IMG/VR virus record: IMGVR_UViG_3300029908_000104
Coordinates: 1-32,261 of that record
Strand: one strand, 5' to 3'
DNA: 32,261 nt
From: a virus
The position numbers and the translations under genes are program-made. Positions 6,066 through 27,910 of the stretch are shown one piece after another (within the stretch, counting starts at the first letter, position 1; each line of letters begins with the position of its first letter). The notes beneath the pieces are model-generated. The model was not told the DNA's origin, did no database searches, and saw only the letters and a program-made list of their open reading frames with translations.

Positions 6066-6161
6066 GAAAGTTGAAGGGTGAAAGCTGAAAGCTGAGTCAG
6101 AAGGGAGTGGGATCGGTGAAGGGTTTTACTCAGGTTTCAAGTTTCAGCATTCAGGTTTCGC
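6066..6161 (-). repeat. Heptamer inverted repeat, copy A
   Basis: On the plus strand GAAAGTTGAAGGGTGAAAG... (6066-6096) faces CTCAGGTTTCAAGTTTCAGC... (6129-6160). The arms are imperfect reverse complements built from seven-base units of the type CTGAAAG, with a spacer of about 32 nt. It fills the gap between the tail chaperone frameshift stop and the tape measure start, so a transcript would form a long hairpin just before the tape measure start. Confidence 0.75.
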
Positions 6162-6163
6162 GG

Positions 6164-6735
6164 TTACCTGATTTCCATTCCGTGGAGGGTTGCGTCGAGT
6201 CGGAGGCGGGCTTCTTCCTTTTGATACTCCCGCTCCAGGAGCATGACGCTATCCAGGAAGGCGATCGCGTCGGCTTCCTCGGGAATTTGACGCAGGATGA
6301 GGGCGAGATCCATGGTCTGCAGGTCATGCTCCTCTAGCAGCTCGTCACGTCCTCGTGGTTGAGCTGGATCTTTTTTTTTTGGAGTTCCCGCATGGCTGCC
6401 GCCAGATCGACAGCGTGAGCCACCTCGATGCCATGAAACTTGGCCACCATCCCGGTCATCACATCGATCTCCTCTTCGGGTGTCATCAGATCGAGAAACT
6501 CTTGCACGGTGAGTGCTGCACCGGTGCAGTCGGTGGCCTTCCCGCGCTCCAGCATGATCAGGAGCCGCTTTTCGCGGAGATCAGCGACTTCCATCCTGGC
6601 ATCGCACGCACCTGCCTCCTCCTGCTCCAGGGCGTAGAGTCGTCGCATTTGCCCGCGAGTGAGCGGAGGCACGGAAATACGTGCCGAACTATCAGCAAGC
6701 TCAAAAGGGATTGGTTCGATGTGACGGAGTTTCAA
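6164..6735 (-). CDS. Tail assembly chaperone GT, -1 frameshift product
   Basis: If the ribosome slips by -1 on the A10 run (6380-6371), the product continues past the 6334 stop and ends at TAA 6166-6164, giving about 190 residues instead of 133. The extension starts KDPAQPRGRDELLEEH, then carries an acidic, helical segment (IPEEADAIAFLDSVM, LLEREYQKEEARLRL) and ends HGMEIR. This is the G/GT arrangement of long-tailed phages, where the T part recruits the tape measure and G the tube protein. The -1 frame stays open to just before the leader of the tape measure gene, as expected. The slip signal and stem-loop are listed separately. Translated by hand from the minus strand. Confidence 0.8.
6334..6735 (-). 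CDS. Tail assembly chaperone G, zero-frame product
   Basis: A 133-residue protein, mostly helical and acidic, starting at a TTG codon (MKLRHIEPIPFE); I find no ATG near it in frame and no Shine-Dalgarno sequence. It reads TRGQMRRLYALEQEE and TPEEEIDVMTGMVAKFHG, and ends LQKKKIQLNHEDVTSC. Position just before the tape measure, size and the frameshift signal near the 3' end identify it as the short form of the tail assembly chaperone, which keeps the tape measure soluble and brings tube subunits to it. The real start could lie elsewhere given the unusual TTG. The leader carries a heptamer repeat (6757-6800). Confidence 0.8.
   Translation of the reverse strand: MKLRHIEPIPFELADSSARISVPPLTRGQMRRLYALEQEEAGACDARMEVADLREKRLLIMLERGKATDCTGAALTVQEFLDLMTPEEEIDVMTGMVAKFHGIEVAHAVDLAAAMRELQKKKIQLNHEDVTSC
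6338..6380 (-). promoter_or_regulatory. -1 programmed ribosomal frameshift signal
   Basis: On the minus strand codons CAA AAA AAA AAG (run of ten A, 6380-6371) contain the heptamer A AAA AAG, the slip site of dnaX. After a 3-nt spacer a stem-loop follows: CAGCTC (6366-6361) pairs with GAGCTG (6343-6338), with an inner CACG/CGTG stem closed by an AGGA loop. The zero-frame TAG lies directly after the stem. Slip site, stimulatory stem and an open -1 frame together make a convincing signal. Confidence 0.85.
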
Positions 6736-6756
6736 GAGGGTGAGAGAGGTGGAGAC

Positions 6757-6800
6757 GAAAGCTGAAAGGTGAAAGGTGAAAGGTGAGAAAGTGGGAAGGT
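6757..6800 (-). repeat. Heptamer repeat, half copy
   Basis: The plus strand reads GAAAGCTGAAAGGTGAAAGG and continues with one more GTGAAAG-type unit. It is a run of about five seven-base units equal to one arm of the inverted repeats at 6066, 9944 and 10451, here without an opposing arm. It lies in the leader of the tail chaperone gene. Confidence 0.65.
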
Positions 6801-6825
6801 TAGGAGATCGCCACTCTCTGCCGCG

Positions 6826-7152
6826 CTAGGAAGTTGGAGGATTGATTGTCACCGTTCCGTCAGTGTGAACCGTGACGGCTGGGATCTGCGCAGTGATCGC
6901 AGAAAGTTCCGCAAGTCCCTCGGTATCGCCATTGGCCGTCAGGCGTGCGGTGACATAGGTAATGAGCGCTTCCAGCTCGGAAAAGAGGCTGGCCGAGTTG
7001 GTGCCCAAGACATCAAGGGTTGCCTGGTTGAGCCGAGGCAGGGAATCCCGGAGAACACCAAAGATCGTCGTCTTGATGGACTGAATGTTTGCGAGGATCG
7101 CCTGGGCATTGGACTGCGCAGGAGTGATGAGAGAGGCGTCGAGGATGGACAT
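6826..7152 (-). CDS. Hypothetical small protein in tail-fibre region
   Basis: A 108-residue protein between the fibre-like gene and the tail chaperone. The first 85 residues are predicted helical, rich in Ala, Leu, Ile, Ser and Thr (AQAILANIQSIKTTIFGVLR), with a short Thr/Val-rich tail (VTVHTDGTVTINPP). No family is recognised. A small tail or fibre-assembly protein is possible from position only. The leader is C/A-rich (AACCAACAACCCAAATCC) and lacks a Shine-Dalgarno sequence, a style shared by several other starts in the window. Codon usage looks like that of its neighbours. Confidence 0.6.
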   Translation of the reverse strand: MSILDASLITPAQSNAQAILANIQSIKTTIFGVLRDSLPRLNQATLDVLGTNSASLFSELEALITYVTARLTANGDTEGLAELSAITAQIPAVTVHTDGTVTINPPTS

Positions 7153-7175
7153 AATTTTGGATTTGGGTTGTTGGT

Positions 7176-9107
7176 TTAATTATTTTTTTGCTGAACACTG
7201 ATGCTGGTGAGTATCGCGGAGGGAGTGATGGTGCTCGCTGTGGCGTTGTAAAACTGCAGCACGACACTTGATCCTGATTGATACGAACCCTGGAAAATAT
7301 ATCCTGTCGGCAGCGATCCCGAGAAACTCGCTCCCACATTGGCTAAATCGTAAGGAAACGATGTTGCTGCTGGAGCTGGCTGTTGCATACCAACGGGTAC
7401 TGAGACCGTTCCAGACGCCCCCGCAGAGAGGGCGGGAGGAGTTACCATGAAATTTCCGACAAGGTTTGGGTTAAGGAGGCTTACTCTAACACTTGTATCT
7501 GGATACGGGCCGGGGGAATTTGCCGTAGCGTATGGCGTGACACCAGTTGCACCATAGGGGATATACGCAGCAGCGATACAAACTGGAGTTGAAGTTAATC
7601 GCACCTCAAGTCGCCACGAAGATGCCGTCATAGATGCTCGAATGTGCGAGATGTTGTACGCCCCTTCGGTAGCTTGATTTCGGAGCCACGCTGCGCTGTA
7701 TACTGATCCCACGGCATCAACGGAAAATGATGATCGAGAACCCATGTATCCCACCACGCCGACGACATGACCAATAGGCTCTCCAGTCCCAGCGAAAAGT
7801 AAAACCCATTGGTTGGCGGCAGTTACGGTGCTTGATCCATCATTTGTCGCAGTGATGACTGAAGCAGTCGTGTAACTAAAACTATTGGTTGTCGCATTAG
7901 TGATGATGAATTCTCCGTTGTATTCTGCGTGATTGGCCGAGGAGATCGTGATGCTCATGCCGTTGGAAAACGGCAGATTGGTGCCCGTGGCTACGGCATT
8001 GCTATTGGTGCCAGTCAGCGTCACTGGGTAATTAGAATAACCAACGCTAGCATTCGTTGCTGCGACGGACTGTGCGCCCGTATATATATCTCCGGATGGA
8101 CCAGGTGCGGCGGGAAAATAACGGGTATCAAGAGAGCCGATATTGGCGAAGTCCGTACTGCCAAGATTGGTGGCATTAGCGGCAATAAAGGTGCCAGCGT
8201 TGACCGTGACGGTATCCCCGGCTGCATCACCAAGTGTGGTGTTGCCGTTGACCGTCAGATTATTAGTGACGGTGAGATTGTTTCCAACGTAGGCATTTGA
8301 TGGAAAACCGCCATTTGTAGCCCACACGAAGTTGTTGCTAACCGCCGTGATCGCCGTGGCGTTGCTGGTGATGCCAGCGGCAAGCGTGTTACTTGCTGCG
8401 GTCAGGCTGGCGTTGACTGCATTGCTCACCACAGCTGCCGCACCATTGGTATCGGCATTAGTAAGGAAGAGATTTCTCAGCGAACCCACATTTGCAATGT
8501 TGTTGCTGGCCAGACTTGTGGCATTAGACGCCGTGAGAGTGCCAGCATTTACCGTCAGCGTGTTCCCCGAGACTGCACCGAGAGTTACGCTGTTATTAAA
8601 AAATGATGCCCCGCCAAAGACCCCCGAGCCCGAAACATTAAGCACCCCCGTGACAGACGCCCCGTTGTTGGCAAAGAAATTATTGGTGACGGTGAGTGAC
8701 GAGAGTGTCCCAGATCCGCTTATCGTGCTCGACGCGCTAAGAAAAAGAGTGGGTGACCCACCGTTGGTTACAATGGTGCCACCTTCATACGTTGATCCCG
8801 AAAGTAATAAAATCGAACCACTGCCACCGTTGGTCTGGACGTAGTTGGTCAGGGAGTTACCAACCGCCGTGATTGCGCTAGTGTTGGTAGTGATCTGACC
8901 TTGCAGAGAATTGCTCACAGCAGTGAGCGCCCCGTTAGTGACGACCCCGTTGCTCGCGAGGATCTGGGTGGCGGTGAAGCCAGGGGCGAAGAGTGCGCCA
9001 TTGGTCGCGTTGATTTTGACAGAGGGAGTCTGCCCCTGCAGCGATGCTGCAAGGAGAAGACTCGCGCAGAGACGCAGAGACGCTGAGAAGGAGAGAAATG
9101 GTTTCAT
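7176..9107 (-). CDS. Fibre-like protein with repeat-derived signal peptide
   Basis: A 643-residue protein beginning with what reads as a Sec signal peptide (MKPFLSFSASLRLCASLLLA, then a likely cut near SLQGQ). The body is Asn/Thr/Ser/Ala-rich with repeated units such as SNATAITAVSNNF and NTSAITAVGNSLTNYV, resembling the trimeric coiled coils of phage fibres and adhesins, and shorter beta units (TVTNNLTVNG, GDTVTVNAGTF). The last 200 residues look globular (QWVLLFAGTGEP, VVGVVGYMGSRSSF). A fibre or surface-binding role is inferred. A signal peptide is odd for a tail protein. Its codons are made of a GACGCAGAGACGC-type repeat, and the leader is another repeat. It may be an acquired host gene. 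Confidence 0.65.
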   Translation of the reverse strand: MKPFLSFSASLRLCASLLLAASLQGQTPSVKINATNGALFAPGFTATQILASNGVVTNGALTAVSNSLQGQITTNTSAITAVGNSLTNYVQTNGGSGSILLLSGSTYEGGTIVTNGGSPTLFLSASSTISGSGTLSSLTVTNNFFANNGASVTGVLNVSGSGVFGGASFFNNSVTLGAVSGNTLTVNAGTLTASNATSLASNNIANVGSLRNLFLTNADTNGAAAVVSNAVNASLTAASNTLAAGITSNATAITAVSNNFVWATNGGFPSNAYVGNNLTVTNNLTVNGNTTLGDAAGDTVTVNAGTFIAANATNLGSTDFANIGSLDTRYFPAAPGPSGDIYTGAQSVAATNASVGYSNYPVTLTGTNSNAVATGTNLPFSNGMSITISSANHAEYNGEFIITNATTNSFSYTTASVITATNDGSSTVTAANQWVLLFAGTGEPIGHVVGVVGYMGSRSSFSVDAVGSVYSAAWLRNQATEGAYNISHIRASMTASSWRLEVRLTSTPVCIAAAYIPYGATGVTPYATANSPGPYPDTSVRVSLLNPNLVGNFMVTPPALSAGASGTVSVPVGMQQPAPAATSFPYDLANVGASFSGSLPTGYIFQGSYQSGSSVVLQFYNATASTITPSAILTSISVQQKNN

Positions 9108-9148
9108 GAGGTTCGTGGATTTCGTGATTTTCGTGGTTAAATTTCTTG
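9064..9148. repeat. Two interspersed repeats at start of fibre gene
   Basis: Positions 9064-9092 read CGCGCAGAGACGCAGAGACG and on, the GACGCAGAGACGC type also seen at 23909-23924 and 24316-24336. Positions 9110-9148 read TTCGTGGATTTCGTGATTTT followed by CGTGGTTAAATTTC, a tandem TTCGTG-type repeat. Both types resemble interspersed repeats I have seen in several environmental bacterial phyla. The first lies inside the signal-peptide codons of the fibre gene, the second in its leader. Confidence 0.65.
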
Positions 9149-9154
9149 CGTGTC

Positions 9155-9931
9155 TTAGGAGACGAGGACGAAGAGTTTTGCGTTGGTGGAGGCGTTGAAA
9201 TCAGCGCAGCGGATGCTGCCTGGTGCTGCTGTTGCGGCTGTCCCAGCCTGTACTTGGTAGTTCAGCAGGCCGCTTCCTGGCACAATGATCTGGATGAGCT
9301 GGCCGACGGGCCGCGCAAGAGCGTTGAGGCCGTCGAGGTTGGTCGATCCCCCTCCGGTCACGCCGGTGATGGTCGGGATGAAGTTGGAGGAGGCCGCCGC
9401 GATCTGGGCATCGACCTGCGCAGCGGTGTAATAAGTCGGATTATTGACGACCGTGCTCGGGGTTTCACTCAGGCCGCTCAGATAGACAGTGCCCGCCCCC
9501 TGGCCGATGGTGATCGGACCAGCGGAGGTCTGGAGGGTGATCGACCACCAGATATCCAGCTCGGTAGCCGGGCTGCTGATGGTCCAGTTGGTCTGGGTCG
9601 GGGTGAGCTGGAATCCGAACTGATAGTCAGCCTGTGTGCTCCAGTTGGCATAGGTGCAGACCGGATTGTTGAAGGAGGCATAGGGGACGGTCCCCTCATA
9701 GAGCAGCGTCCCGGCGGCATTATTCTGGTAGATGTCGAGTGTGGCGGACGTGACGTTCGTTATCGTGTCGAGATTCGCCGCGACGCTCGGATCTCCCGTG
9801 AAGGCGGCACAGTTGATGGCGACCGCATTCCCGGTCGGGATGGCCATGGCGGCATTGGAGACCGCATCAACAACGTCTTCCTGAGTAGCCTGATTGAGCG
9901 GGAGCCAGAAAGTTTTGGCAGTGAGTTGCAT
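9155..9931 (-). CDS. Putative tail or fibre structural protein
   Basis: A 258-residue, Thr/Ala/Asn-rich protein without signal peptide. The N-terminus (MQLTAKTFWLPLNQATQEDV) resembles an attachment domain; the middle alternates short beta strands (TSATLDIYQNNAAGTLLYEG, ATELDIWWSITLQ). Near residue 165 YYTAAQVDAQIAAASSNF resembles the short helices that precede fibre shafts. The C-terminus (GQLIQIIVPGSGLLNYQVQ) looks beta-rich. It sits between the minor tail protein and the fibre-like gene, so a fibre-base or minor tail role is likely, but no family is assigned. The leader contains heptamer repeat copy B and no Shine-Dalgarno sequence. Confidence 0.65.
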   Translation of the reverse strand: MQLTAKTFWLPLNQATQEDVVDAVSNAAMAIPTGNAVAINCAAFTGDPSVAANLDTITNVTSATLDIYQNNAAGTLLYEGTVPYASFNNPVCTYANWSTQADYQFGFQLTPTQTNWTISSPATELDIWWSITLQTSAGPITIGQGAGTVYLSGLSETPSTVVNNPTYYTAAQVDAQIAAASSNFIPTITGVTGGGSTNLDGLNALARPVGQLIQIIVPGSGLLNYQVQAGTAATAAPGSIRCADFNASTNAKLFVLVS

Positions 9932-9943
9932 GGATGATTACAG

Positions 9944-10016
9944 CGAAAGCTGAAAGTTGAAGGGTGAAAGCTGAGGGGCCGAATTCGAAGGGATGGTTTT
10001 CATTCAGGTTTCGCGG
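9944..10016 (-). repeat. Heptamer inverted repeat, copy B
   Basis: GAAAGCTGAAAGTTGAAGGG and on (9944-9975) faces ATTCAGGTTTCGCGG (about 10002-10016). The core GCTGAGGGGCCGAAT is shared exactly with copy C. It lies between the stop of the 10023 gene and the start of the 9931 gene. Confidence 0.7.
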
Positions 10017-10022
10017 TTTTGG

Positions 10023-10436
10023 CTAGGTGCCGATTTGTCCGGTTTTGATTTCGTAGCGCATGATGGTCAGCGAGCCTTCCCAGTGTTCCCGGGTGACCTT
10101 GATCGCGCCTGTGAAGGTGAGCGTTTTGGTGACATTTCCCGTGGTGGCAGATATCACCCAGAGACTGATGGTGGCGAGGTGGGGCACTGTGTCCGCGTGG
10201 GTGTTGTAAAAAAGACACGCCGCATCCGCTGCCTTCCAGAAGCGGGAGACCCGATAGTTCAGCACATTGGAGACATTCCCCCGGTCGTGCAGCAGCTTGG
10301 CCGCGCTTCCGATGATGTCATCCTCCTGCAGCGTCCAGTCACAGGGACCGGCGAGGCCCTCGACGAAGCTCTCCGGATTGCTCCCGGTGAGTTCGAGAGG
10401 AACTGACGTTCCGACCCCTGTGACAAAGATGCGCAT
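10023..10436 (-). CDS. Minor tail protein, unassigned
   Basis: A 137-residue protein, beta-rich, beginning MRIFVTGVGTSVPLELTG, with a DWTLQEDDIIGSAAKLLHDRG segment in the first third and NVTKTLTFTGAIKVTREHWE near the C-terminus. It lies directly downstream of the tube protein gene, a common place for small tail completion or tip proteins. No domain is recognised with confidence. Heptamer inverted repeat copies lie on both sides (B downstream, C upstream), so its transcript segment is bracketed by two potential hairpins. No Shine-Dalgarno sequence is visible; the leader is pyrimidine-rich (CCCTCTCTCTAA before ATG). Confidence 0.65.
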   Translation of the reverse strand: MRIFVTGVGTSVPLELTGSNPESFVEGLAGPCDWTLQEDDIIGSAAKLLHDRGNVSNVLNYRVSRFWKAADAACLFYNTHADTVPHLATISLWVISATTGNVTKTLTFTGAIKVTREHWEGSLTIMRYEIKTGQIGT

Positions 10437-10450
10437 TTAGAGAGAGGGAT

Positions 10451-10535
10451 GAAGGGTGAAAGCTGAAAGCTGAGGGGCCGAATCTGAGCTGAGTTTTTTC
10501 ATTTCAGGTTTCAAGTTTCAGCTTTCAGGTTTTGC
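10451..10535 (-). repeat. Heptamer inverted repeat, copy C
   Basis: GAAGGGTGAAAGCTGAAAGC and on (10451-10474) faces TTTCAGGTTTCAAGTTTCAG and on (10502-10535). It is the clearest copy in the late block and nearly matches, in reverse complement, the copy at 27824-27910. It fills the gap between the tube gene stop and the next start. Confidence 0.75.
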
Positions 10536-10546
10536 AGTCCGTTGGC

Positions 10547-11500
10547 TTAGGAAGTGCGGACAGCGAGGGTGAAGTTGTTGCCGAGGACGCCGGAGGTGGA
10601 GAGGCGCTCTCCGATGAGCGTGACTTCGCCGATTCGGCTCTTGTTGTCGAAGCCGAGCGGCCCCTGGGTCGGCACAGCGCAGGGCATCGTGAGATTCAGA
10701 CCTCCAACGATGGAGGAGGTCACCGTGAGCGGCAGACCGTCGTTGTTGAGGATCTTGCCGATACCCGCATTGGCCGAGTAGAGCTGCACCAGGTTGAAAA
10801 AGTCGCCACTGTCCAGGTTGAGCGGAGTAAACTTTGCCGTGGAATCGACTCCATCGATGCGGTAGTTAATCACGCCCCAGAGATCGGTCTCGACCGGGGT
10901 GAGCTTCACCGTAGGGGTGAACTTCACGCCCCCCTTGGCCGTCTCGATGGCGCTGAAGGGAGAGCTGCTTCCCCAGGCGACGGTATAGGGATTGCGCAGG
11001 CGCAATAGCGGATTGGTGGAAGGAGCCGTGAAGGCGCTCGACTGCACGAGAGCGACATTTGCCGCCGCAGTGGGATCGGCCTCAAAGGCGCTCAGGCAGG
11101 TGATTTCCGTCTCCCCGAAGATATCCACATTGGCGGCAAAGTTAATCTCCGGCATCTTGGTGACAGCACTGGCAGGATAGGTGATGCTCTTGCCGTCGCG
11201 GGTCTGGATCACTGCCGGAGCGTCTGTGCTCGGGAAAATGAGCTGCCCGATCATATCGCAGGTATAAGGCAGCAGATACGCCAGCAGGGAGGCAAGGTTG
11301 CCCGTGGTGGCAATCACCTTGCCGGTGATTTTGGTCTCCACATGCATGCGGCTAGCGCCAACTTGGCCATGCAGATTGGTGTTGATGGGTGCGGTTTTGA
11401 TTTCGCTCTGGGACTTCCATCCCTCGGCAAATTCCATCGTGAGGCCTCCCGCCGTCAGATAGGCGGGACCGGCGGGATAATTCGTGCGTGTTTGGGACAT
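10547..11500 (-). CDS. Major tail tube protein
   Basis: A 317-residue protein with the alternating beta-strand pattern of siphophage tube proteins: an N-terminal GGLTMEFAEGWKSQSEIKT, a middle VKFTPTVKLTPVETDLWGVI, and a C-terminus GEVTLIGERLSTSGVLGNNF. It is followed by a minor tail protein and preceded by tail-terminator and head-completion genes, the usual place of the tube. No sheath gene is seen upstream, so the tail is probably non-contractile. The leader (CCTAACACCCACACACA before ATG) lacks a Shine-Dalgarno sequence, surprising for a protein needed in many copies. Identification rests on position, size and predicted fold type. Confidence 0.65.
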   Translation of the reverse strand: MSQTRTNYPAGPAYLTAGGLTMEFAEGWKSQSEIKTAPINTNLHGQVGASRMHVETKITGKVIATTGNLASLLAYLLPYTCDMIGQLIFPSTDAPAVIQTRDGKSITYPASAVTKMPEINFAANVDIFGETEITCLSAFEADPTAAANVALVQSSAFTAPSTNPLLRLRNPYTVAWGSSSPFSAIETAKGGVKFTPTVKLTPVETDLWGVINYRIDGVDSTAKFTPLNLDSGDFFNLVQLYSANAGIGKILNNDGLPLTVTSSIVGGLNLTMPCAVPTQGPLGFDNKSRIGEVTLIGERLSTSGVLGNNFTLAVRTS

Positions 11501-11519
11501 TGTGTGTGGGTGTTAGGAG

Positions 11520-11822
11520 TTAGGATTCGGAATGCTGGGCGTTGATCTGTGATTCCTGACTGTTGCCTTCGGACTCCGATGCCACCACGGGAGTGGCAGG
11601 TTCCGATGGGGTTTGAGGAAGCGGCGAAGTTCCGCCAAGCTGCGCGTCGGCTTTGGCCTTGGCATCAGCGAGTGAGAGTGAGCGGTTGGCCTGGATGAAC
11701 TGCCAGGCGAGCTTGTCGCGCTGGGCCTCATAGTCGATTCGGGCATTGAGATCGGCGGTTTGGGCTTCCTTGAGCGCCTTGGCCTCATCGGCGGCGGCTT
11801 GGAGTTGTTCTGGTGTGAGCAT
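11520..11822 (-). CDS. Small helical protein between tube and terminator
   Basis: A 100-residue protein, strongly helical in the first 65 residues (TPEQLQAAADEAKALKEAQT, DAKAKADAQ), then Ser/Pro/Glu-rich and probably disordered (PLPQTPSEPATPVVASESE). It is acidic and lacks membrane segments. It sits between the tail terminator-like and tube genes. No family is recognised; small helical proteins at this place often help head-tail joining or tube assembly. The leader CACCACTAACTAAAAACACC before ATG is typical of the C/A-rich, Shine-Dalgarno-free starts of the window. Confidence 0.6.
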   Translation of the reverse strand: MLTPEQLQAAADEAKALKEAQTADLNARIDYEAQRDKLAWQFIQANRSLSLADAKAKADAQLGGTSPLPQTPSEPATPVVASESEGNSQESQINAQHSES

Positions 11823-11832
11823 GGTGGTGTTT

Positions 11833-13951: not shown

Positions 13952-13962
13952 GGGAAAATGGA

Positions 13963-20887: not shown

Positions 20888-21483
20888 TTGGGCAGTACGA
20901 CCTTGCCGGAGGCCTCTAGTTGATCCACATCCGCAAAGAAGCGCTTGCGCAGCCGGGAGATCTTCTCCGAGTTGCTGAGACTGCCGCTGGCAATACCCTT
21001 GGCCACCTCGTCCCTCATCCACTCGATGAACTTCTCGCAGGTTTGGATTTCCAAACGCTCCTGCGAAATCTCCACTTCCTTGGTCTTGAGACGAAGCGCT
21101 TTCTCCTTGAGTTTGAGCGTTGCCGTATCGTGCTCCACCTTTAGGTGATCCATGAGCATCTCGTGTGAGATCTCCCCAAGCACTTCGCTGAAGCGGGCAT
21201 CCTTGAGGGCCTTGCGGATCGTTTCGTCCAGATCCTTGGGCAAGTTCTTGTCCATCACCTCGCGCGCCTTCGCCGCTTCGGCCATGCGCCAGACCGAGGC
21301 CTCCGAAGATCGGTGCAGACGGCTCAACGCTCCCGCCGTCGTCGCACAGCCATGCAGATCCAGCCATTCCAGTCGCTCCGCAAAGGAGGGACGCTGTGAG
21401 AGCCACCAGCCGAAATACTCGTCGAAGATCTCGGCGCGTTTCAGCCTGGCGGCCAGTGAATCTGTTCGTGAATCGGCGCACAC
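20884..21483 (-). CDS. Terminase small subunit-like, DUF3486 (Mu gp27-like)
   Basis: A 199-residue helical protein starting at GTG 21483, directly behind the TAA of the gp26-like gene, with a strong GGAGG about 7 nt upstream. It shows an N-terminal helix-turn-helix-like part (LARLKRAEIFDEYFGWWLSQ; TTAGALSRLHRSSEASVWRM), a long coiled coil (KLKEKALRLKTKEVEISQER, about 125-145) and a C-terminal helix (RLRKRFFADVDQLEASGK). Mu gp27 (DUF3486) lies at the same place before the large terminase and has the same layout. It would recognise phage DNA ends for headful packaging. The 4-nt overlap with the large terminase suggests coupled translation. Confidence 0.75.
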   Translation of the reverse strand: MCADSRTDSLAARLKRAEIFDEYFGWWLSQRPSFAERLEWLDLHGCATTAGALSRLHRSSEASVWRMAEAAKAREVMDKNLPKDLDETIRKALKDARFSEVLGEISHEMLMDHLKVEHDTATLKLKEKALRLKTKEVEISQERLEIQTCEKFIEWMRDEVAKGIASGSLSNSEKISRLRKRFFADVDQLEASGKVVLPK

Positions 21484-21714
21484 TTATTTTCCTCCCTTGA
21501 GATAGGCGATCCCCGCCTTGGTGATTTGCCAGGAGATGTCCTTGGTCAGCGGATTGACGGAGGACTCGATAAACTTGGCGTTGCGCAGCTCGCGCAGGGC
21601 ATCGGCAAACTCGGTCTCCCCGACACGGCGCTGCAGCTGCGCCTCGGCCTTGAGGGTTGATTCCCTCAGTGCGAATTCGACGCGCTCCAGGATGATGAGA
21701 AGGAGCGTGGTCAT
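21484..21714 (-). CDS. Winged-helix small protein, Mu gp26-like
   Basis: A 76-residue protein with the outline of a winged helix: helix VGETEFADALRELRNAKFIE, then a beta wing DISWQITKAGIAYLKGGK. Mu gp26 and relatives, between gp25 and the small terminase, have a similar size and shape. The exact role is unclear; DNA binding during packaging or regulation of late genes is possible. It overlaps the gp25-like gene by ATGA at its start and abuts the small terminase GTG, so these three are coupled. Confidence 0.65.
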   Translation of the reverse strand: MTTLLLIILERVEFALRESTLKAEAQLQRRVGETEFADALRELRNAKFIESSVNPLTKDISWQITKAGIAYLKGGK

Positions 21715-22133
21715 TCTTCTAGTGTGGTGATTTTCAGACGGCCTTCGACGCGGCCTAGCCTGGTGGAGATGCGCTCGATGCCGGTAAGCACGCCACCGAT
21801 CCGGTCATAGATGTGCTTGCCTCTCTCGCTCCCGGCCGCGATGATCTCCGTCTTGTCGGTCTCCATCTTGCGCTCGATCTGGGTCATGCGCTGTTCGAGC
21901 TTGTTCTGCTCACGTATGTTTTCGTCCCGATGAGCGCGGAGTTCCTCCTTGGTGGCCATGTCCTTGAGCACATCGACCTTGAGAGGCTGCTGGATGTTGA
22001 CCTTGTCGGGGTTGCTCTGTTTCCAAAGGAAAGCGGCTGCAACGGCCAAAGGACTCGCGATAGCGATAATGGTGTTGAGGATGTGCCAGTTATTGGCAGC
22101 TTCAACTGTCGAGGTAATGGCTTCAGCAATCAT
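21711..22133 (-). CDS. Membrane-anchored coiled-coil protein, Mu gp25-like
   Basis: A 140-residue protein with one transmembrane helix near the N-terminus (about 18-37, LNTIIAIASPLAVAAAFLW) and a long coiled coil after it (KEELRAHRDENIREQNKLEQ, about 62-81, then RMTQIERKM). The end (ERISTRLGRVEGRLKI) continues as heptads. Mu gp25 (DUF2730-like) and spanins share this N-in membrane anchor plus coiled coil. Its place between endolysin and terminase genes fits gp25, and a lysis (inner spanin) role is also possible. No known function is assigned. The gene starts 4 nt after the endolysin stop. Confidence 0.65.
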   Translation of the reverse strand: MIAEAITSTVEAANNWHILNTIIAIASPLAVAAAFLWKQSNPDKVNIQQPLKVDVLKDMATKEELRAHRDENIREQNKLEQRMTQIERKMETDKTEIIAAGSERGKHIYDRIGGVLTGIERISTRLGRVEGRLKITTLEE

Positions 22134-22137
22134 GATT

Positions 22138-22740
22138 TCAAAAAATGCGGTCCAGGGCGGCGGCGACCCGTTGCCAGAAAGAGGGAACCGAGGGGCTGGA
22201 TGGCCCGTAGCCCAGCACGCTCAGCATCCCGGCGCATCCCGGCTGCTGATCTACCTCGGAGGGATCAAAGTGATCATCCTCGTCGAATTTCCCCTGGGTG
22301 TAGTGATTGGTTCCGGCCCAGAGGTAGGGGCTGAAGATCCCCTCTGCGCGGTAGCCGAGACCGTTGAACCGCTCAATGCGGTAGAGAGTGGACGGCAGAT
22401 CGCTCCAGTTCAGTCCAGCCAGACCTTCGTAGTGAAGCGCATCGACCGCACTCTCTTCCCAGGGGAAAGGAGGATTGCCTTCAATGGGCCGTCCAGCGGG
22501 GACATGCACCGTGCGTGCCGTGAGCGGATCGCCATTGTGGAGATGACAAGTGAAGTCACCCCCACTCTCCCGCTGATGCAGGCAGCCGATCACCATCCAG
22601 GGAACACCCGTGCGGGCCTCGACGGCGGCATAGCGAGATTTGCCACGTTGGATGGCATTGCGGGGTGCAATGAAGCGCGGGAGGTCGGTCAGCTCCATGC
22701 TGTCCCAGAGAGCGGCGAGATCGGGAGTGGCGGGGTTCAT
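22138..22740 (-). CDS. Endolysin, lysozyme-like
   Basis: A 200-residue protein resembling a family of phage lysozyme-like endolysins: GVPWMVIGCLHQRESGGDF (about 45-63, likely catalytic Glu 58), then CHLHNGDPL, TVHVPAGRP, PFPWEESAVDALHYEGL, IERFNGLGYR and SPYLWAGTNHYTQGKF, ending in DEDDHFDPSEVDQQPGCAG. These blocks occur in this order in the family. It would cut the peptidoglycan sugar chain at lysis. No signal peptide or membrane anchor is seen, so a holin is needed; two candidates follow on the 3' side of the plus strand. The start overlaps the stop of the upstream membrane protein (TGATG). Confidence 0.8.
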   Translation of the reverse strand: MNPATPDLAALWDSMELTDLPRFIAPRNAIQRGKSRYAAVEARTGVPWMVIGCLHQRESGGDFTCHLHNGDPLTARTVHVPAGRPIEGNPPFPWEESAVDALHYEGLAGLNWSDLPSTLYRIERFNGLGYRAEGIFSPYLWAGTNHYTQGKFDEDDHFDPSEVDQQPGCAGMLSVLGYGPSSPSVPSFWQRVAAALDRIF

Positions 22741-23363
22741 CAGAACTCAATGCCTCCGCGAAGTGTCAGGCTCGGACCGTAGATGGTCTGGCCGTGCGAG
22801 TTGGTACCGATGTCGATGCCGGGAGAGAGCCGAAGGCTCTGGAAGATGGAAGACGGAAGATTGGAGATGGGGTTAGTCGAGAGATCGGGATGCAGCACAC
22901 GGGGAACTTCCGGATCTCGTTCGGGCCTGACTTCTGACTTCTGACTTCCGACTTCTGGAGTCTGCGGATGACAGGCGATCAGGATGCCTACAGAAATAAA
23001 GCAAAGTCCCAGCATCCCAAGCGCACCGGGATAAGCGTATCCTCCGGAAGAGCGGCGAGCGTCGATCGACGAGGGCAGAGGTCCGGGAGGTACTGGCTCG
23101 GCCTTGCGTACCTCAGCCTGTGGATTGAATGCTCCACCGGGAACGGTGCCGCGCATCCAGATGATGGGCTGAGTCCGCTTGATCGTACGGTACAGCGACC
23201 AGATGAGGCTAAGGATGGAAATGCCCTGGAGAACGTAATTCGTGAGGGCTGGCTTATCGACGTGATACCCGAAGAACTGGAGCACCACGGCAATCAGTCC
23301 GACAAAAGCGCCGACAAAAGCGCCGCTCTGCCAGGGAAGTTTGCCTGTGGTGTTCCAGTCCAT
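22740..23363 (-). CDS. Three-TM lysis-module membrane protein
   Basis: A 207-residue protein with three hydrophobic helices (about 14-35, 42-61 and 111-131) and a proline-rich stretch between the second and third. The third helix ends LIAC, which looks like a lipobox. The C-terminal 75 residues are polar; part of it (VGSQKSEVR, then SNLPSSIFQSLRLS) is encoded by heptamer-type repeats (22923-22964 and 22838-22872). It lies upstream of the endolysin and overlaps it by TGATG. A holin or spanin-type role is likely by place but not proven. The end GPSLTLRGGIEF looks beta-like. Confidence 0.6.
   Translation of the reverse strand: MDWNTTGKLPWQSGAFVGAFVGLIAVVLQFFGYHVDKPALTNYVLQGISILSLIWSLYRTIKRTQPIIWMRGTVPGGAFNPQAEVRKAEPVPPGPLPSSIDARRSSGGYAYPGALGMLGLCFISVGILIACHPQTPEVGSQKSEVRPERDPEVPRVLHPDLSTNPISNLPSSIFQSLRLSPGIDIGTNSHGQTIYGPSLTLRGGIEF
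22838..22964. repeat. Heptamer-type tandem repeats within a lysis gene
   Basis: At 22923-22964 the plus strand reads GCCTGACTTCTGACTTCTGA and on, with units of the type ACTTCTG; at 22838-22872 it reads GGAAGATGGAAGACGGAAGA and on. Both are seven- to eight-base units related in style to the CTGAAAG family. They are translated as part of the membrane protein's C-terminal region. Confidence 0.6.
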
Positions 23364-23393
23364 TTGCGCGGGTATTAGGGGTGAGTGTTCGGA

Positions 23394-23771
23394 TCAGGAG
23401 GCCGCTTGCTCCGGCACGACCGGGCTGGACTCAGCAGAGGTAGATGCAGGAGGCACCTGCGTTCCGCTGACTGCGGTGCTGGTCTTCGGCAGATTTGCCA
23501 CGGCCAATTCGATGGCGATGTTGACGGCCTGGGCTGTGGCCTGGATGCCTGCGGCCTCGGCGGTGCTGGTGATGGTGGAGAAGGCAGCTGCCTGCTTCTC
23601 CTTGCCGCTGATGGAGCTAGTAGCCAGTCCGACAACGACCTGCTCGGCGATGGGGAGCAGCTCGGTCAGGAGTGCGGAAAGATCGCTTTCCAGCACGGGC
23701 AGGAGAGCGGCGATGAGGGATTTGCTGGCCTTGGTGATCCAGGCAATGAAGTTGATGAGTTCTTGATGCAT
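23394..23771 (-). CDS. Holin-like first gene of late block
   Basis: A 125-residue protein, largely helical: an amphipathic/hydrophobic N-terminus (INFIAWITKASKSLIAALLP), alternating short hydrophobic runs (LLTELLPIAEQVVVGLATS), helical Ala-rich centre (ATAQAVNIAIELAVANLPK) and a Pro/Ser tail. The style recalls LL-H type phage holins, but no clear membrane-spanning segment is seen, so this is a weak call. It is the first gene of the leftward lysis-head-tail block. Its leader consists of CCCAAA repeats and lacks a Shine-Dalgarno sequence. No promoter is identified upstream. Confidence 0.55.
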   Translation of the reverse strand: MHQELINFIAWITKASKSLIAALLPVLESDLSALLTELLPIAEQVVVGLATSSISGKEKQAAAFSTITSTAEAAGIQATAQAVNIAIELAVANLPKTSTAVSGTQVPPASTSAESSPVVPEQAAS

Positions 23772-23773
23772 GT

Positions 23774-23800
23774 GGGTATTGGTTTGGGTTTGGGTTTGGG
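23774..23800 (+). repeat. GGGTTT hexamers, G-quadruplex motif
   Basis: GGG tracts at 23774-23776, 23786-23788, 23792-23794 and 23798-23800 form a telomere-like (GGGTTT) run on the plus strand. Four G3 tracts could fold as a quadruplex. It is on the template strand of the late block directly before the first start codon; the mRNA has the C/A-rich complement. Confidence 0.5.
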
Positions 23801-24345
23801 TTACTGACAGAGGGGAGAGTTCTCGCGCAAACCAGCGACTGGCGGGAGCTGGTAGGACTGCGAAGCAGCCCCTTTAGGGGCGAGCGGCGTGGGCACGCCC
23901 GAGTTCAAAGACGCAGAGACGCAGGGGGGAAGGGCACCGCCGCCGGGCGTAATGACTTCCCGACGGCGGCTATTCACATACGGAAATCTTGAGGAGGCAC
24001 CGCCGCCTGACCATGACGGCAGACGACGGTGCCGGTTGTTCCCCCCAGAACAGACGAGATGGAGCAACGCTCCAAAAGACGTGATCGCCACAACGGCGCG
24101 ATCCGGGCCATGGCCTAAATCCATGCCCATGATAAAAGGGGCTTTAGCGGGCGACTGATCGTCGCGCTTGTCTAAGATTTTTCCTTCCGAGGGGTGCATG
24201 CCAGCAAGGCTGGCACAAAGCATCAAAGGGCGTTAGCTGACCCCAAAAACCGCAAAAACTATAAGAGTTTTTTTGCCTCTAGGTGGCATCCGGTGGGGAA
24301 AGAATGAGTACTCGCGCCAAGACGCAAAGACGCTAAGGGGGCGGA
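23801..24345. other. Gene-poor region with hairpins and repeats
   Basis: No convincing gene is found. The region carries a series of hairpins: 23886-23899, 23939-23970 (GCCGCC/GGCGGC), 23996-24033 (GGCACCG/CGGTGCC, 10-bp stem with one mismatch), 24060-24074 (TGGAGC-AAC-GCTCCA), 24083-24103 (GATCGC/GCGATC), a palindrome GGCCATGGCC at 24106-24115, 24199-24215 (TGCCAGC-AAG-GCTGGCA) and 24254-24272 (AAAAACT/AGTTTTT). GACGCAGAGACGC-type repeats lie at 23909-23924 and 24316-24336. An open minus-strand frame at 23801-24223 crosses these hairpins; its short stretch MGMDLGHGPDRAVVAI could be a relic of a small phage protein. Confidence 0.5.
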
Positions 24346-24429
24346 CTATTTCCTTGAGATACCGATGGCAAAAACCGCAGCTACAAACAGAATCGAAACG
24401 AGGAATTCTGTAAAAGGATCAGGGGGCAT
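24346..24429 (-). CDS. 27-residue hydrophobic microprotein
   Basis: A small frame starts at ATG 24429, 3 nt after the TAA of the superinfection immunity gene (TAA-TCC-ATG), and ends at TAG 24346. It reads MPPDPFTEFLVSILFVAAV with an FAIGISRK end: a polar N-terminus, one hydrophobic helix of about 16 residues (about 9-24) and a basic end. This is the typical shape of a single-pass membrane microprotein with the basic end in the cytoplasm. Close coupling to the membrane immunity protein suggests it may act with it. No family is known to me, and no ribosome binding site of its own is visible; translation would depend on the upstream gene. Confidence 0.45.
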   Translation of the reverse strand: MPPDPFTEFLVSILFVAAVFAIGISRK

Positions 24430-24432
24430 GGA

Positions 24433-24924
24433 TTACTGAGTTCTCTTTGGGCTCACGATGGCAGCAATAATGCAGGCAATCCAAACAACAACAGTCCAAC
24501 CAAAAAGGAGATTCAAGAGCGCTATCCATCCCACCCATTCAGATTTTGAGGCCATCAGCGTGGGAAGGAAGTAGATGACTGCAAAAATCAGCAGCGGCCC
24601 AACTGGAGGAAGATCGGAAAGCATCGGCCACCCGCGATAGGTGCCGAAAAGGCCATAAAGAGTAACTGCGCCAGCAATTAGAAAAGCCCATAGAATGTGT
24701 TTCCAAAACTTTCCCCCGAAGGATTTATAACGGGGAGGGCGAAAGAAAACCGCCATCTCCTCGGAAGCAATCAGAGGCTTCCAGGACGGCCAGCCATCCG
24801 CGCAGTAAAGAGCGTCACGCGTGATCTGACCCGACTTCCATCGGGTTGCGATTTCCTCCATTGGCAGCGGCCCAATCTGCACGCCCTGGTCATGGACAAA
24901 GAAGGTCGCGGCAGGTGAGGTCAT
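24433..24924 (-). CDS. GYF_2 - superinfection immunity (Imm-like) membrane protein
   Basis: A 163-residue protein of two parts. Residues about 6-58 look like a GYF_2 domain: FFVHDQGVQIGPLPMEEIA, then a WKSGQITRDALYCADGWPSW segment. After a basic link comes a membrane helix (about 74-93), then the superinfection immunity pattern of T4 Imm-like proteins: LLIFAVIYFLPTLMASKS (about 111-128), and IALLNLLFGWTVVVWIACII (about 134-153). In T4, Imm stops DNA injection by related phages. Here it lies in the leftward operon behind the RHH regulator (ATGA overlap), so it is probably expressed in the lysogen. The GYF_2 part may bind a proline-rich partner. Confidence 0.8.
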   Translation of the reverse strand: MTSPAATFFVHDQGVQIGPLPMEEIATRWKSGQITRDALYCADGWPSWKPLIASEEMAVFFRPPRYKSFGGKFWKHILWAFLIAGAVTLYGLFGTYRGWPMLSDLPPVGPLLIFAVIYFLPTLMASKSEWVGWIALLNLLFGWTVVVWIACIIAAIVSPKRTQ

Positions 24925-25253
24925 TTCTTCTTACTTGGCTTTTTCCCCGCCTTGGCAGTGGATGCACCCCTCTGAGGCGTGGATGCAGAGGGTGAGTGAT
25001 ATATTGTCTGAATACCCTTAGCTCCTTTCCCTTTGATTTTCTGTGTCGCATTAATCAAGGGCCTCGCTCTGTCGGGTGCGTTAATCCATTCACCTGGAAT
25101 CTTGTGCCCCATGCCCTCAAGTTTCTCGGCTATTGCCTCTCGTAGATACTGACTGCGGCTCTTTCCTCCACGCATCGAGTCCATCAAGGCCAACATCTCG
25201 GCATCAAGGGCTGCTGCAATCAGGGTTTGTCCATCAGATCTTTTTCCGGGCAT
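24921..25253 (-). CDS. RHH regulator of the leftward immunity operon
   Basis: A 110-residue protein starting at ATG 25253. A longer frame runs upstream but overlaps the divergent RHH gene and lacks meaning. Residues 8-46 have the ribbon-helix-helix outline: strand TLIAAALDAEM, helix LALMDSMRGG, then KSRSQYLREAIAEKLEGM, as in CopG/Arc-type regulators. The rest is Lys/Gly/Ser/Pro-rich and ends KAGKKPSKKK, a basic tail that could add DNA contacts. It resembles the divergent RHH protein at 25332 (RS-Q/K-Y-L/I-R-x-A-x-x-E/R-KL). First gene of an operon with the Imm-like gene, it is the best candidate for the phage repressor, replacing the Mu c repressor. Confidence 0.75.
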   Translation of the reverse strand: MPGKRSDGQTLIAAALDAEMLALMDSMRGGKSRSQYLREAIAEKLEGMGHKIPGEWINAPDRARPLINATQKIKGKGAKGIQTIYHSPSASTPQRGASTAKAGKKPSKKK

Positions 25254-25331
25254 GGGTGTATAAAAGGTTTTTTTGCTCACCGCGTCAATTTCTTGTTGAC
25301 CGGTGTATAATTCAATTATATTCCATTCAAT
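25254..25331. promoter_or_regulatory. Divergent promoter-operator between two RHH genes
   Basis: Leftward: TTGACG (25288-25283), a 17-nt spacer, TTTTAT (25265-25260), which would start RNA about at the ATG 25253, i.e. leaderless. Rightward: TATAAT (25306-25311) with a weak -35, and a leader of about 13 nt without Shine-Dalgarno. GGTGTATAA occurs at 25255-25263 and 25302-25310, overlapping both -10 boxes. ATTCAAT occurs at 25310-25316 and 25325-25331, 15 bp apart. GTCAA and TTGAC (25285-25301 area) form an inverted repeat. These are candidate RHH operators. Confidence 0.6.
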
Positions 25332-25508
25332 ATGTCTGACAGCACAAAGCCAAAACAGCGCCAGAAGGCGGCTCTCGTCGCCGTGTGGATGCCCAAGAAA
25401 ATGAAGGAGACCTTGGATCAAGCCGTCGTGTCTATGGACAGCGATCGGTCGAAGTACATCCGCACAGCCGTCCGAGAGAAACTCGCTCGCGACCTCAGCG
25501 CCGCCTAA
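25332..25508 (+). CDS. Small RHH regulator, first early gene
   Basis: A 58-residue protein. After a basic N-terminus (MSDSTKPKQRQ) comes the RHH core: strand KAALVAVWMPKKM, helix KETLDQAVVSM, turn DSDRSKYIR, helix TAVREKLARDL. Its second helix closely matches that of the divergent RHH protein (SRSQYLREAIAEKL), so the two may be related or may bind similar sites. It takes the place of Mu ner at the start of the rightward early genes; it may shut down the leftward repressor operon, as Cro or Ner do. Found by reading the plus strand directly. The predicted leader is about 13 nt and lacks a Shine-Dalgarno sequence. Confidence 0.7.
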   Translation: MSDSTKPKQRQKAALVAVWMPKKMKETLDQAVVSMDSDRSKYIRTAVREKLARDLSAA

Positions 25509-25521
25509 CCCCTCTAAGAAC

Positions 25522-25854
25522 ATGGCCTCTCTAAAACACTTCCCAACGAAGATTCTGAACGAGCTCCATCCTCACATGCCAGTGAGAGTACTTCTACAGA
25601 ACTGCGAAGGCTCACCGTTCAATATGGCAAGTTTCCGTCATGGGAAAGATCGGGTGAGTTTCCTGACTATCAAGGGCAAAAAAAACGCTGACTGGATCAT
25701 GGCACTGATTGCCGAACATATCCGGCCCTGGAATCCCATTTCAGAGGAGGCCGCTATGAATCTTCGCCATCACCGCAAGGCAATCAAAGCACGGCGCACC
25801 TCGGCCCCTTCAGCTTTCAAGTCTCAGGTTTCAGCCCTTTCACCTGCCGCCTAA
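25522..25854 (+). CDS. Hypothetical early protein with repeat-coded tail
   Basis: A 110-residue basic protein, not recognised. The first 90 residues look folded (HMPVRVLLQNCEGSPF; SFLTIKGKKNADWIMALIAE) with mixed strands and helices. The last 17 residues (SAPSAFKSQVSALSPAA) are encoded by a heptamer repeat (25809-25843) of the CTGAAAG family in the translated orientation. So the end of the gene was probably shaped by insertion of a repeat. It lies 13 nt after the small RHH gene and is presumably transcribed with it. A nucleic-acid-binding role is possible given its Lys/Arg content, but there is no motif to support it. Confidence 0.6.
   Translation: MASLKHFPTKILNELHPHMPVRVLLQNCEGSPFNMASFRHGKDRVSFLTIKGKKNADWIMALIAEHIRPWNPISEEAAMNLRHHRKAIKARRTSAPSAFKSQVSALSPAA
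25809..25843 (+). repeat. Heptamer repeat, half copy
   Basis: TTCAGCTTTCAAGTCTCAGG and on, with units of seven bases similar to the arms of the inverted repeats, here within the 3' end of the 25522 gene, just upstream of the 25874 gene. Confidence 0.6.
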
Positions 25855-25873
25855 CCCAGATCCCGGAATCGCG

Positions 25874-26143
25874 ATGAACAAACCCACTCCAGCAGCACCG
25901 AAGCCCGCAGGCCTGCCTCCGCAACCTGAGTTTGATTTCAAACATCACCTTCCTGCGGACAAGGAGATCTTCTCGATTCCCTTCCTCATGCGCTTTTTCG
26001 GAACCGGCCCGCAGCACTGGATCAACCTGATCGAGTCAGGAGCGATCAAGGCAACGTCTCTCGAATCCCCCAATGCCTCCAAGACGATGTACCGCATCCC
26101 TCGCGCCGAGCTGATCCGCTTCCTCAATTCCCGCACTCAGTAA
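25874..26143 (+). CDS. Helix-turn-helix-like small protein
   Basis: An 89-residue protein. After a Pro/Ala-rich first 20 residues comes IFSIPFLMRFFGTGPQHWIN, a helix-turn pattern, then LIESGAIKATSLESPNAS and YRIPRAELIRFLNSR. Helix-turn-helix followed by ...-Y-RIPR-x-EL-I-x-FL is the pattern of excisionase/MerR-like winged helices, which read a DNA site and end in a helix with I-P-R. It probably binds DNA and regulates early genes or assists transposition. It lies in the rightward early block, 19 nt after the previous gene, and is followed by a C/A-rich spacer. Confidence 0.65.
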   Translation: MNKPTPAAPKPAGLPPQPEFDFKHHLPADKEIFSIPFLMRFFGTGPQHWINLIESGAIKATSLESPNASKTMYRIPRAELIRFLNSRTQ

Positions 26144-26173
26144 CCCACCCCGTAACCCGCAACCAACAACACC

Positions 26174-26500
26174 ATGACACAACAAGCAGAAGTCAGAAGT
26201 CAGGATTCAGAAGTTAGGAATCCCGAATCCGAAATCCTCCCTAATCGCGTCACTCCGCACTGCGACTGGTGCGCGTCTGGCGCTGGCTCCTGCGGCAAGT
26301 GCCCTCCCATGACCAATGCAGACCGCATGGCTCTGATCATCGAGATCCATGGCATCGCAGTGCAACAGAGGCGTGAGCTGACGGTTGCCGAGATGGATGC
26401 CATCGATCGGCTGCGCGATCAGATCCACAAGGAACAACTGGCCTGGATGAACGAACGCTCCCCGATCCCTGCAGGAGCAACCAACGCACTCGAAGCCTGA
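26174..26500 (+). CDS. Small protein with CxxC pairs and repeat-coded N-terminus
   Basis: A 108-residue protein. Residues 1-22 (QQAEVRSQDSEVRNPESEI) are encoded by heptamer-type repeats (CAGAAGT units, 26187-26219). Then two Cys pairs, CDWC and CGKC (about 30-43), suggest a small zinc-binding knuckle. A helix follows (NADRMALIIEIHGIAVQQRR; EMDAIDRLRDQIHKEQLAW). The function is not known. Its C/A-rich leader (CCGCAACCAACAACACC before ATG) is almost the same as that of the ATPase B and the 31499 gene. The N-terminal repeat may be an extension; an internal start is not obvious. Confidence 0.6.
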   Translation: MTQQAEVRSQDSEVRNPESEILPNRVTPHCDWCASGAGSCGKCPPMTNADRMALIIEIHGIAVQQRRELTVAEMDAIDRLRDQIHKEQLAWMNERSPIPAGATNALEA

Positions 26501-26509
26501 TTATGTCTT

Positions 26510-26926
26510 CTAGCTCAATACAGCATGAGTCACGAGGGCAAGCACGGCCAATATCAGGCATCCGCAGAAGCCTCCTTTGGCTGCTCGATACCGCGCGGGC
26601 AGATTGGCACCGACAGGTGAAATTCCAGTCGCGCCGGTCACACTGCGTGATTTTGCCTGTTCCAGCACACGTCTCGTCAGCTCGTGTGCAATCCATACTT
26701 CGCCGTGGAGTGAAAATGCTCCAAGCAGGATACCGAGTCCGAGTGCTACCCAGCCAATCCGCAGAGACCACAGAGACATGCCCACGCTGTGGTCTCCTGA
26801 GCGAAACGCAACCAATGCCGTCAGAGCAGCAGAGGCTATCACCAGCAGTTGGCGAAGCCATGCCTGCTTCTTCTCGTTGCGATCATTTGCCAGGTCACAG
26901 ATCTGACGAAATTCCTCCGTTGTCAT
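26510..26926 (-). CDS. Three-TM membrane protein opposite to the early block
   Basis: A 138-residue protein starting at ATG 26926, with GGAG about 6 nt upstream; an ATG at 26962 is possible but less likely. It opens MTTEEFRQICDLANDRNEKK, then a helix LRQLLVIASAALTALVAFRS (about 24-43), a second LRIGWVALGLGILLGAFSLH (about 55-74) and a third near the end (CLILAVLALVTHAVL). A small membrane protein read in the opposite direction within early genes is typical of phage extras such as exclusion or host-altering genes. No family is recognised. The plus-strand frame over the same region shows no sensible protein. Confidence 0.55.
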   Translation of the reverse strand: MTTEEFRQICDLANDRNEKKQAWLRQLLVIASAALTALVAFRSGDHSVGMSLWSLRIGWVALGLGILLGAFSLHGEVWIAHELTRRVLEQAKSRSVTGATGISPVGANLPARYRAAKGGFCGCLILAVLALVTHAVLS

Positions 26927-26967
26927 CCCCCGACTCCAACCCAGCTGCCTAACCCCCGTCAATATCT

Positions 26968-27810
26968 ATGAGCAAAAAATCCTCCACCACTTTGGCTGCG
27001 CCCGGCAGCCAGTCGCACAGCCACAACAGCAACGAGCCTACATCGGCACTCGAAATCGTCGCACCGGGCCAAGTTTCCAAAGTCACCGCCCGAAGCGGCC
27101 TCGGTCTCGACGCCATGAGTCTCGACGAACTCGGGGCGACCTTTGGCAGGCTTGATGCAGCACGCCTGCATTACGACAAAATCTCCGGCATCTGCGGATG
27201 TCTGCAAGGACTCGCCCTGATCGAAATCAAGAGCCGTCTCGGACACGGCAACTATGGCCCCTGGCTCAAGGAGCACTTCCCGAAAAGTCAGGATACGGCC
27301 AGCCGGTTCATGCGCATTGCCGAAGAGTTCCTGGAAGCCTCCGGAACGAAGGGCCGCAAAATTCCGCATAATGCGGAATTTGCCGAGGTTTCTCTTTTGG
27401 GAGAATTGATCGACAGCCTTTCTACCTTGAATAACGAGTCCATCGACATGGCTCATCCTGTCGTTCAGGCGGTCGCCAAATATGTAGGTGATCGCAGTTA
27501 TACACAACTCTGGCTTGATCTACCCGACCAGCGCGGCGGCTATCGCGGTACCAAGAAAAACGGGGCCCCACGCGCCGAGAAGCGCACCGATGCGGAGATC
27601 GCCCGTGATGAGTACGAGGAGCACGCCCCCGCCGTCTGCCGCCGCACTGCCGAGACGATGGTTGAGCTACTTCTCCTGGAAGGCCCCGGCAAGGAGCGAG
27701 CCTGGGACATCCTGGACGATGAGGAGCTGGATAAACTCAAGCTCCAAGCCCACGACCTCTATGAGGGCGCTCTAGCGAGTCAGAAACGCCGCAAGGCCCT
27801 GCGCAAGTAA
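26968..27810 (+). CDS. DUF3102-like early protein
   Basis: A 280-residue protein. After a Ser/Thr/Gln/His-rich, probably unstructured N-terminus (1-45), residues about 70-125 match DUF3102: GICGCLQGLALIEIKSRLGH, then NYGPWLKEHFPKSQDTASRF and MRIAEEF. This fold is found in phage and plasmid proteins with ParB-like or KilA-type neighbours and is probably DNA-binding. The C-terminal half is charged and helical (RTDAEIARDEYEEHAPAVCR; EELDKLKLQAHDLYEGAL) and ends in basic KRRKALRK. It lies just upstream of the transposase. It may help transposition or immunity control. No Shine-Dalgarno sequence. Confidence 0.7.
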   Translation: MSKKSSTTLAAPGSQSHSHNSNEPTSALEIVAPGQVSKVTARSGLGLDAMSLDELGATFGRLDAARLHYDKISGICGCLQGLALIEIKSRLGHGNYGPWLKEHFPKSQDTASRFMRIAEEFLEASGTKGRKIPHNAEFAEVSLLGELIDSLSTLNNESIDMAHPVVQAVAKYVGDRSYTQLWLDLPDQRGGYRGTKKNGAPRAEKRTDAEIARDEYEEHAPAVCRRTAETMVELLLLEGPGKERAWDILDDEELDKLKLQAHDLYEGALASQKRRKALRK

Positions 27811-27823
27811 CAACAATAGAAAA

Positions 27824-27910
27824 AGCTGAAAGCTGAAACTTGAAACCTGAATGAAAAACAGCCCCTTCACCGCAGCTCCTCAGCTTTCAGCTTTCACCCT
27901 TCAGCTTTCC
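27824..27910 (+). repeat. Heptamer inverted repeat, copy D
   Basis: GCTGAAAGCTGAAACTTGAA and on (27824-27850) faces CTCAGCTTTCAGCTTTCACC and on (27879-27910). Loop includes ATGAAAAACAGCCCC, close to the reverse complement of copy C. This copy is in the plus orientation, matching the rightward direction of the early genes, and lies directly before the transposase start. Confidence 0.75.

Follow-up and report, generated by a model that had tools for sequence, protein, structure and literature searches.

The heptamer inverted repeats of this phage appear, from their homology to bacterial sequences, to belong to an element that is dispersed in genomes of Chthoniobacterales (Verrucomicrobiota). 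They are asymmetric, and their arrangement follows two rules: paired arms carry their stop-bearing strand outward, and the two arm types follow one another in a fixed order along the direction of transcription. We think it probable that a small asymmetric host element resides in the intergenic gaps of the phage, spreads as DNA and is kept by its fit to gene ends. The window corresponds to an IMG/VR record (32,261 bases), in which gene calls come from a simple hexamer caller and are approximate. Portal, head maturation protease and tape measure proteins are encoded in the leftward block. The phage itself is Mu-like and transposable because, in the rightward block, the gene 3' of copy D (27933-30020) matches PHROG 'transposase' (phrog_310, 1.4e-9) and the gene after it 'DNA transposition protein' (phrog_296, 5e-28); distant relatives include annotated phage 'B transposition protein'. 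The two genes span 27933-31251, with copy D immediately 5' of the transposase gene. Between both gene blocks (24433-24924) lies a protein with GYF_2 and superinfection immunity (PF14373) domains, and the final open frame, where the record ends, contains dense 9/12/21-bp repeats (GCCGCCCGTGCC...) at 31976-32261.

The first-pass annotation had described four paired and two half copies, and all are real, with CTGAAAG-type heptamers at all six places. Two-unit arms (TGA[AG][AGC][GCT][CT]TGA) number 21 in the window, whereas 300 dinucleotide-model sequences had 3.2 on average and never more than 9. The copies are as follows:

6066-6161, minus strand: copy A; arm X 6130-6158, C-rich loop, TCTGACTCAG motif, arm Y 6066-6096; fills the gap 6048-6163 between genes 6164-6313 and 3414-6047
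6757-6786, minus strand: half copy; start-side (Y-like) arm alone, upstream of the leftward gene 6334-6648 (or 6735)
9944-10016, minus strand: copy B; arm X a single unit, loop ending in CGGCCCC, arm Y 9945-9975; fills the gap 9932-10022 between genes 10023-10436 and 9155-9931
10450-10535, minus strand: copy C; arm X 10504-10533, loop with AATGAAAAAA and TTCGGCCCC, arm Y 10450-10478; fills the gap 10437-10546 between genes 10547-11500 and 10023-10436
25809-25837, plus strand: half copy; start-side (Y-like) arm alone, upstream of gene 25874-26143 (taken to 25843, it overlaps the end of a possible ORF, 25522-25854)
27820-27910, plus strand: copy D; arm X 27820-27851, loop, arm Y 27879-27909; in the gap 27811-27932 between the DUF3102 gene 26968-27810 and the Mu-like transposase gene 27933-30020

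The 15-bp core ascribed to copies B and C is exact in both (GCTGAGGGGCCGAAT, at 9970-9984 and 10469-10483) and is found in no other copy. Facing arms with a GC-rich loop had also been described; the arms hold for A, C and D, but copy B is degenerate, its distal arm consisting of the single unit GAAACCTGAATGAAAA, and the loops are C-rich on the mRNA strand rather than simply GC-rich. Likewise, it is true that full copies lie directly before a gene start, but they lie equally after a stop: A, B, C and D each occupy the whole gap between co-directional genes of one operon.

Across eight copies from five phage contigs (this record and four other viral contigs), which can be aligned over both arms, the element is an asymmetric inverted repeat of about 75-100 bp with the mRNA-strand consensus GAAACCTGAAAGCTGAAACTTGAAACCTGA(A)TGAAAAC - loop - (CTTCTGA)CTCAGCTTTCAGCTTTCAACCTTCATCC, where the first arm is X and the second Y. 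Read along the mRNA, a stop codon is followed by the purine-rich heptamers of arm X, with TGA in every frame (GAAACCTGAAAGCTGAAACTTGAAACCTGA), then by a loop that is A-rich and then C-rich, then by TCTGACTCAG or a similar motif, and finally by the pyrimidine-rich heptamers of arm Y (CAGCTTTCAGCTTTCACCCTTCA), some 10-30 nt before the start codon. Unit order exceeds random only about threefold, and a small unit alphabet therefore accounts for part of the similarity between arms.

A search for the repeat in hosts and related phages, as had been suggested, found it in both. Within the species-genome collection, the 19-mer core GCTGAAACTTGAAACCTGA has matches in 53 stretches, for the most part from Verrucomicrobiota (Spartobacteria/Chthoniobacterales, Opitutaceae and others), with remaining matches in some Lentisphaerae, Flavobacterium and others; among viral stretches it occurs in two only, and one of these belongs to a near-copy of this phage. 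In Chthoniobacterales, 89 of 197 genomes contain a degenerate three-unit pattern, with units that vary by lineage. Copy C matches a host element (L068) end to end over 92 nt, including both arms and the position of the loop (E=6.6e-13), and the distal arm (X) of copy D is identical to an arm in a second host stretch, L114 (36/36 nt); reversed-sequence control queries of A-D gave no matches. The inner motif of copy A, searched as the Y motif TGARRSYTGAGTCAGA, was found at 15 places, distributed over 5 of 213 Chthoniobacterales genomes; all five belong to one 22-genome family (the genomes being MAG fragments, with family and order as assigned by the genome collection). A backward control of this search gave a few scattered single matches. 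This family is the likely host range of the phage, and the shared inner motif ties several viral contigs, besides this uncultured Mu-like phage, to a narrow group of hosts. A search of the literature available to us found no paper on these repeats in Chthoniobacterales.

Other repeats accompany the element. Octamer repeats at 9065-9096 and 24315-24337 (CGCAGAGA and CGCAAAGA) also match dispersed host repeats (29/29 bases with L110; 88% with L214), and the phage therefore carries several host repeat families. A nonamer array (TTCGTGGATTTCGTG, 9112-9136) lies in the gap next to the octamer array, and a second heptamer family (CTGACTT / CAGAAGT) is found at 22927-22957 and 26187-26219, both arrays at a possible gene 5' end and one within an open frame. 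Many related phages are without arrays; others (L121, L124, L141, L147) have period-7 arrays of other units (GAAGAAC, AAAGCGG, ATTCCGC, GACCACT), two of which flank the portal gene in L121. One Chthoniobacterales genome, G038, contains another heptamer family at very high copy, the backward control pattern (AGTYSRR units) matching it 554 times. In genome G017, a dispersed element of about 92 bp (L169:13031-13121), noticed beside heptamer arrays, is present in some 25 copies.

The first rule concerns polarity; the count covered 1.87 Mb of host DNA, in which 177 arrays have TGA units. Where neighbouring arrays on opposite strands lie within 200 bp of each other, the order is +- in 24 cases and -+ in none, so that paired arms in host gaps always have GAAA/TGA outward. 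Arrays near the left gene follow the rule 43:8 and those near the right gene 53:10, regardless of gene direction; whichever gene is nearest, the stop-bearing strand is directed away from it at both starts (42:3) and stops (54:15), and stop-bearing units of any sequence show the same polarity (26:3 and 25:12, respectively). Because gene direction makes no difference, this rule is not one of alignment with transcription. Among phage contigs collected by the heptamer pattern there are three -+ pairs, of other unit types.

Comparison of sister host genomes indicates residence with turnover. The element is often kept at the same gap while its units and loops change, and since it persists between species whose flanks are 70-93% identical, movement must be slow or old. 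In one sister pair, L361 against L173, the right arm has been lost; half copies are explained by such loss. Phages L390 and L388 have a common loop and different arm units, and they also differ by an array that belongs to another family. L385, which is related through TnpB (55% identity) and TnpA (31%), points to gain or loss between phages: its transposase gene is preceded by a gap of 33 nt without the element, and the gap before the preceding gene, whose homology rests on gene order and weak similarity (E=0.02), has a Y arm, the reverse of this record. We found no target-site duplication and no clean filled/empty pair, sister species showing only shared or replaced gaps, and no transposase linked to the element. 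A 100% identical element gap in L171 and L348 was considered as a sign of constraint and rejected, as adjacent coding DNA is also 97-100% identical. The window itself is 99.7% identical to contig IMGVR_UViG_3300028762_000055 over 19272-32128, and near the portal gene identity falls sharply to about 80% and lower, marking a recombination junction; that contig includes copy D only, unchanged. Relatives at 43-63% portal identity were too distant for direct comparison of gaps in the structural block.

These data bear on the possibility that no element is inherited at all. In that case replication slippage, with 7 nt as its preferred step, would generate arrays locally, and selection at gene ends would sort them, the stop-bearing strand being retained after stops and the G-poor strand before starts. 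Unpaired single arms do follow the gene-end rule, period 7 is favored for many unrelated units in hosts and phages, and in one sister-species comparison (L172 against L215) the gap is occupied in the sister by an unrelated hairpin whose arms are octamer-like; slippage has also been put forward for heptamers in the literature (PMC4692102). We nevertheless regard this account as unlikely, given that homology between phage and host runs end to end and takes in non-heptamer motifs, that the order of units is non-random and that -+ pairs are absent from host gaps.

The second rule concerns orientation. An inverted repeat has the same gross form on both strands, and direction can be read only from the difference between its arms. 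We used inner motifs as markers (TGAGTCAGA or TGAGGGGCCGA for Y; TGAGTAARA, TGA(A)ATGAAAA and similar for X). With these, 17 co-directional phage gaps run X-to-Y with transcription, with one exception (L386, where the array is within an open frame), although the markers were derived from this record and then applied elsewhere and copies within one phage may not be fully independent. The 17 gaps comprise four each in this record and L063, two in L385, and one each in L028, L035, L382, L384, L387, L389 and L390 (the last being the same gap as in L388, L391 and L392). Leaving out this record, as the source of the markers, a fair count is 13:1 in other phages. Host gaps agree 5:1 (L317, L318, L323, L327 and L331, against L337; L315 was excluded because its neighboring genes are too far away). 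The suspicion that orientation is a mere artefact of the palindrome is true of the gross form and was rejected with arm type as the marker. The alignment with transcription proposed in the first-pass annotation is thus upheld, once direction is defined by arm type.

It had been suggested that this bias reflects a function at the RNA level, and a structured leader in the mRNA, controlling translation or stability, would be consistent with the start-proximal position, with orientation by arm type and with mRNA-strand folds that are better than shuffles in three of the four copies (A, C and D; z -4.9, -4.25 and -3.7). Our data argue against this possibility, which we regard as distinctly unlikely: (i) copy B does not fold beyond shuffles (z -0.8); (ii) the antisense strand folds better in all four copies of the record and is also the more stable in six other phage hairpins (ten of ten, strand set by gene direction); (iii) complementarity between a hairpin's own arms (mean 16.9) is below that with permuted arms of other hairpins (18.8; permutation p 0.999), as expected for two distinct arm types but not if selection maintained the stem, and the same permutation of arms in phage hairpins revealed no co-variation in arm pairing; (iv) host arrays are as common in gaps that have no start (0.67 per kb in convergent gaps, 0.59 in co-directional and 0.27 in divergent ones) and (v) an Rfam search of the repeats gave no match. 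A conserved fold of the transcribed strand supported by co-variation, as in structured cis-regulatory RNAs, was not found. We consider it very improbable that the repeats are bidirectional transcription terminators or insulators. An A-rich arm 5' and a T-rich arm 3' on both strands, and the frequency of arrays in convergent host gaps, would suit that role, but the phage copies are located inside operons, A, B and C show no terminator-like signals and the T-rich part is within the stem rather than a tail behind it.

We favor the possibility that the element is spacer-like DNA, tolerated or mildly useful within an operon. Genes of these hosts are without Shine-Dalgarno sequences: SD-like words occur in 5-8% of leaders, against 15-29% in a reverse-complement control, and positions -20 to -4 are pyrimidine-rich with G at about 0.18-0.21. 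Some Verrucomicrobia have been listed as SD-scarce (PMC10783764). Arm Y on the mRNA strand would fit such a leader, and in reverse it would put GAAGG- and GGGAG-like words before the start. Arm X after a stop gives stops in all frames, a property likewise noted for the TAACTGA repeats (PMC4679880), and may have a role at gene ends. Because these bacteria use G-poor leaders without Shine-Dalgarno sequences, a candidate mobile-type host repeat that spreads as DNA would be kept only where the polarity of its arms suits gene ends. The targeted mode of spread also proposed for these repeats is not shown; three-frame stops after genes and G-poor leaders before SD-less starts can account for the remainder of the bias. 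A stronger version, in which the element is intergenic punctuation selected in SD-less bacteria and their phages, X supplying three-frame stops and Y a G-poor, pyrimidine-rich initiation leader, with units turning over while period and polarity are kept, seems to us rather unlikely.

With regard to known systems, the element shares features with several. Like REP, BIME and REPIN sequences (PMC3116915), it is short, extragenic, palindromic and dispersed, and occurs as singlets and often as inverted doublets, but it differs in its heptamer-array arms, its variable loops and the lack of any RAYT association found. REP-like palindromes do adjoin some host arrays; still, movement by a RAYT (Y1) transposase is highly improbable, as array-bearing genomes G002, G003, G004 and G007 (MAGs, and so incomplete) have no PF01797 match, 28 of 30 Y1_Tnp loci are without a CTGAAAG-type array, only 4 have a period-7 array of any kind and no RAYT gene flanked by the repeat was found. 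With MITEs it shares terminal inverted repeats, a fixed outward polarity and conservation among copies.

The likeness to STRR repeats noted at first pass also stands, in that tandem degenerate 7-bp units are dispersed through intergenic DNA. Cyanobacterial heptamers and the GGGAATC/GGGGATT repeats of Xanthomonas and Nostoc (PMC4692102) similarly consist of mostly intergenic seven-base units with copy-number turnover and some facing pairs (Xanthomonas). The units here differ from those named there, and form a defined two-arm asymmetric element with strict polarity that is common to phages and hosts. The TAACTGA heptamers of Beggiatoaceae (PMC4679880) are also intergenic, near start codons and with stops in all frames of one strand; they are direct repeats whose stop-bearing strand runs forward toward the start, whereas here it points away from the gene and arms form inverted pairs. 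Neither account, to the extent considered, describes a two-arm asymmetric element or an X-to-Y rule. Heptamer repeats are over-represented in many bacteria with no accepted reason, and two countable rules, outward stop-bearing arms and X-to-Y order, make both the question of why seven and the cause of orientation testable. The element behaves as an intergenic repeat of the REP or MITE type whose arms are STRR-like.
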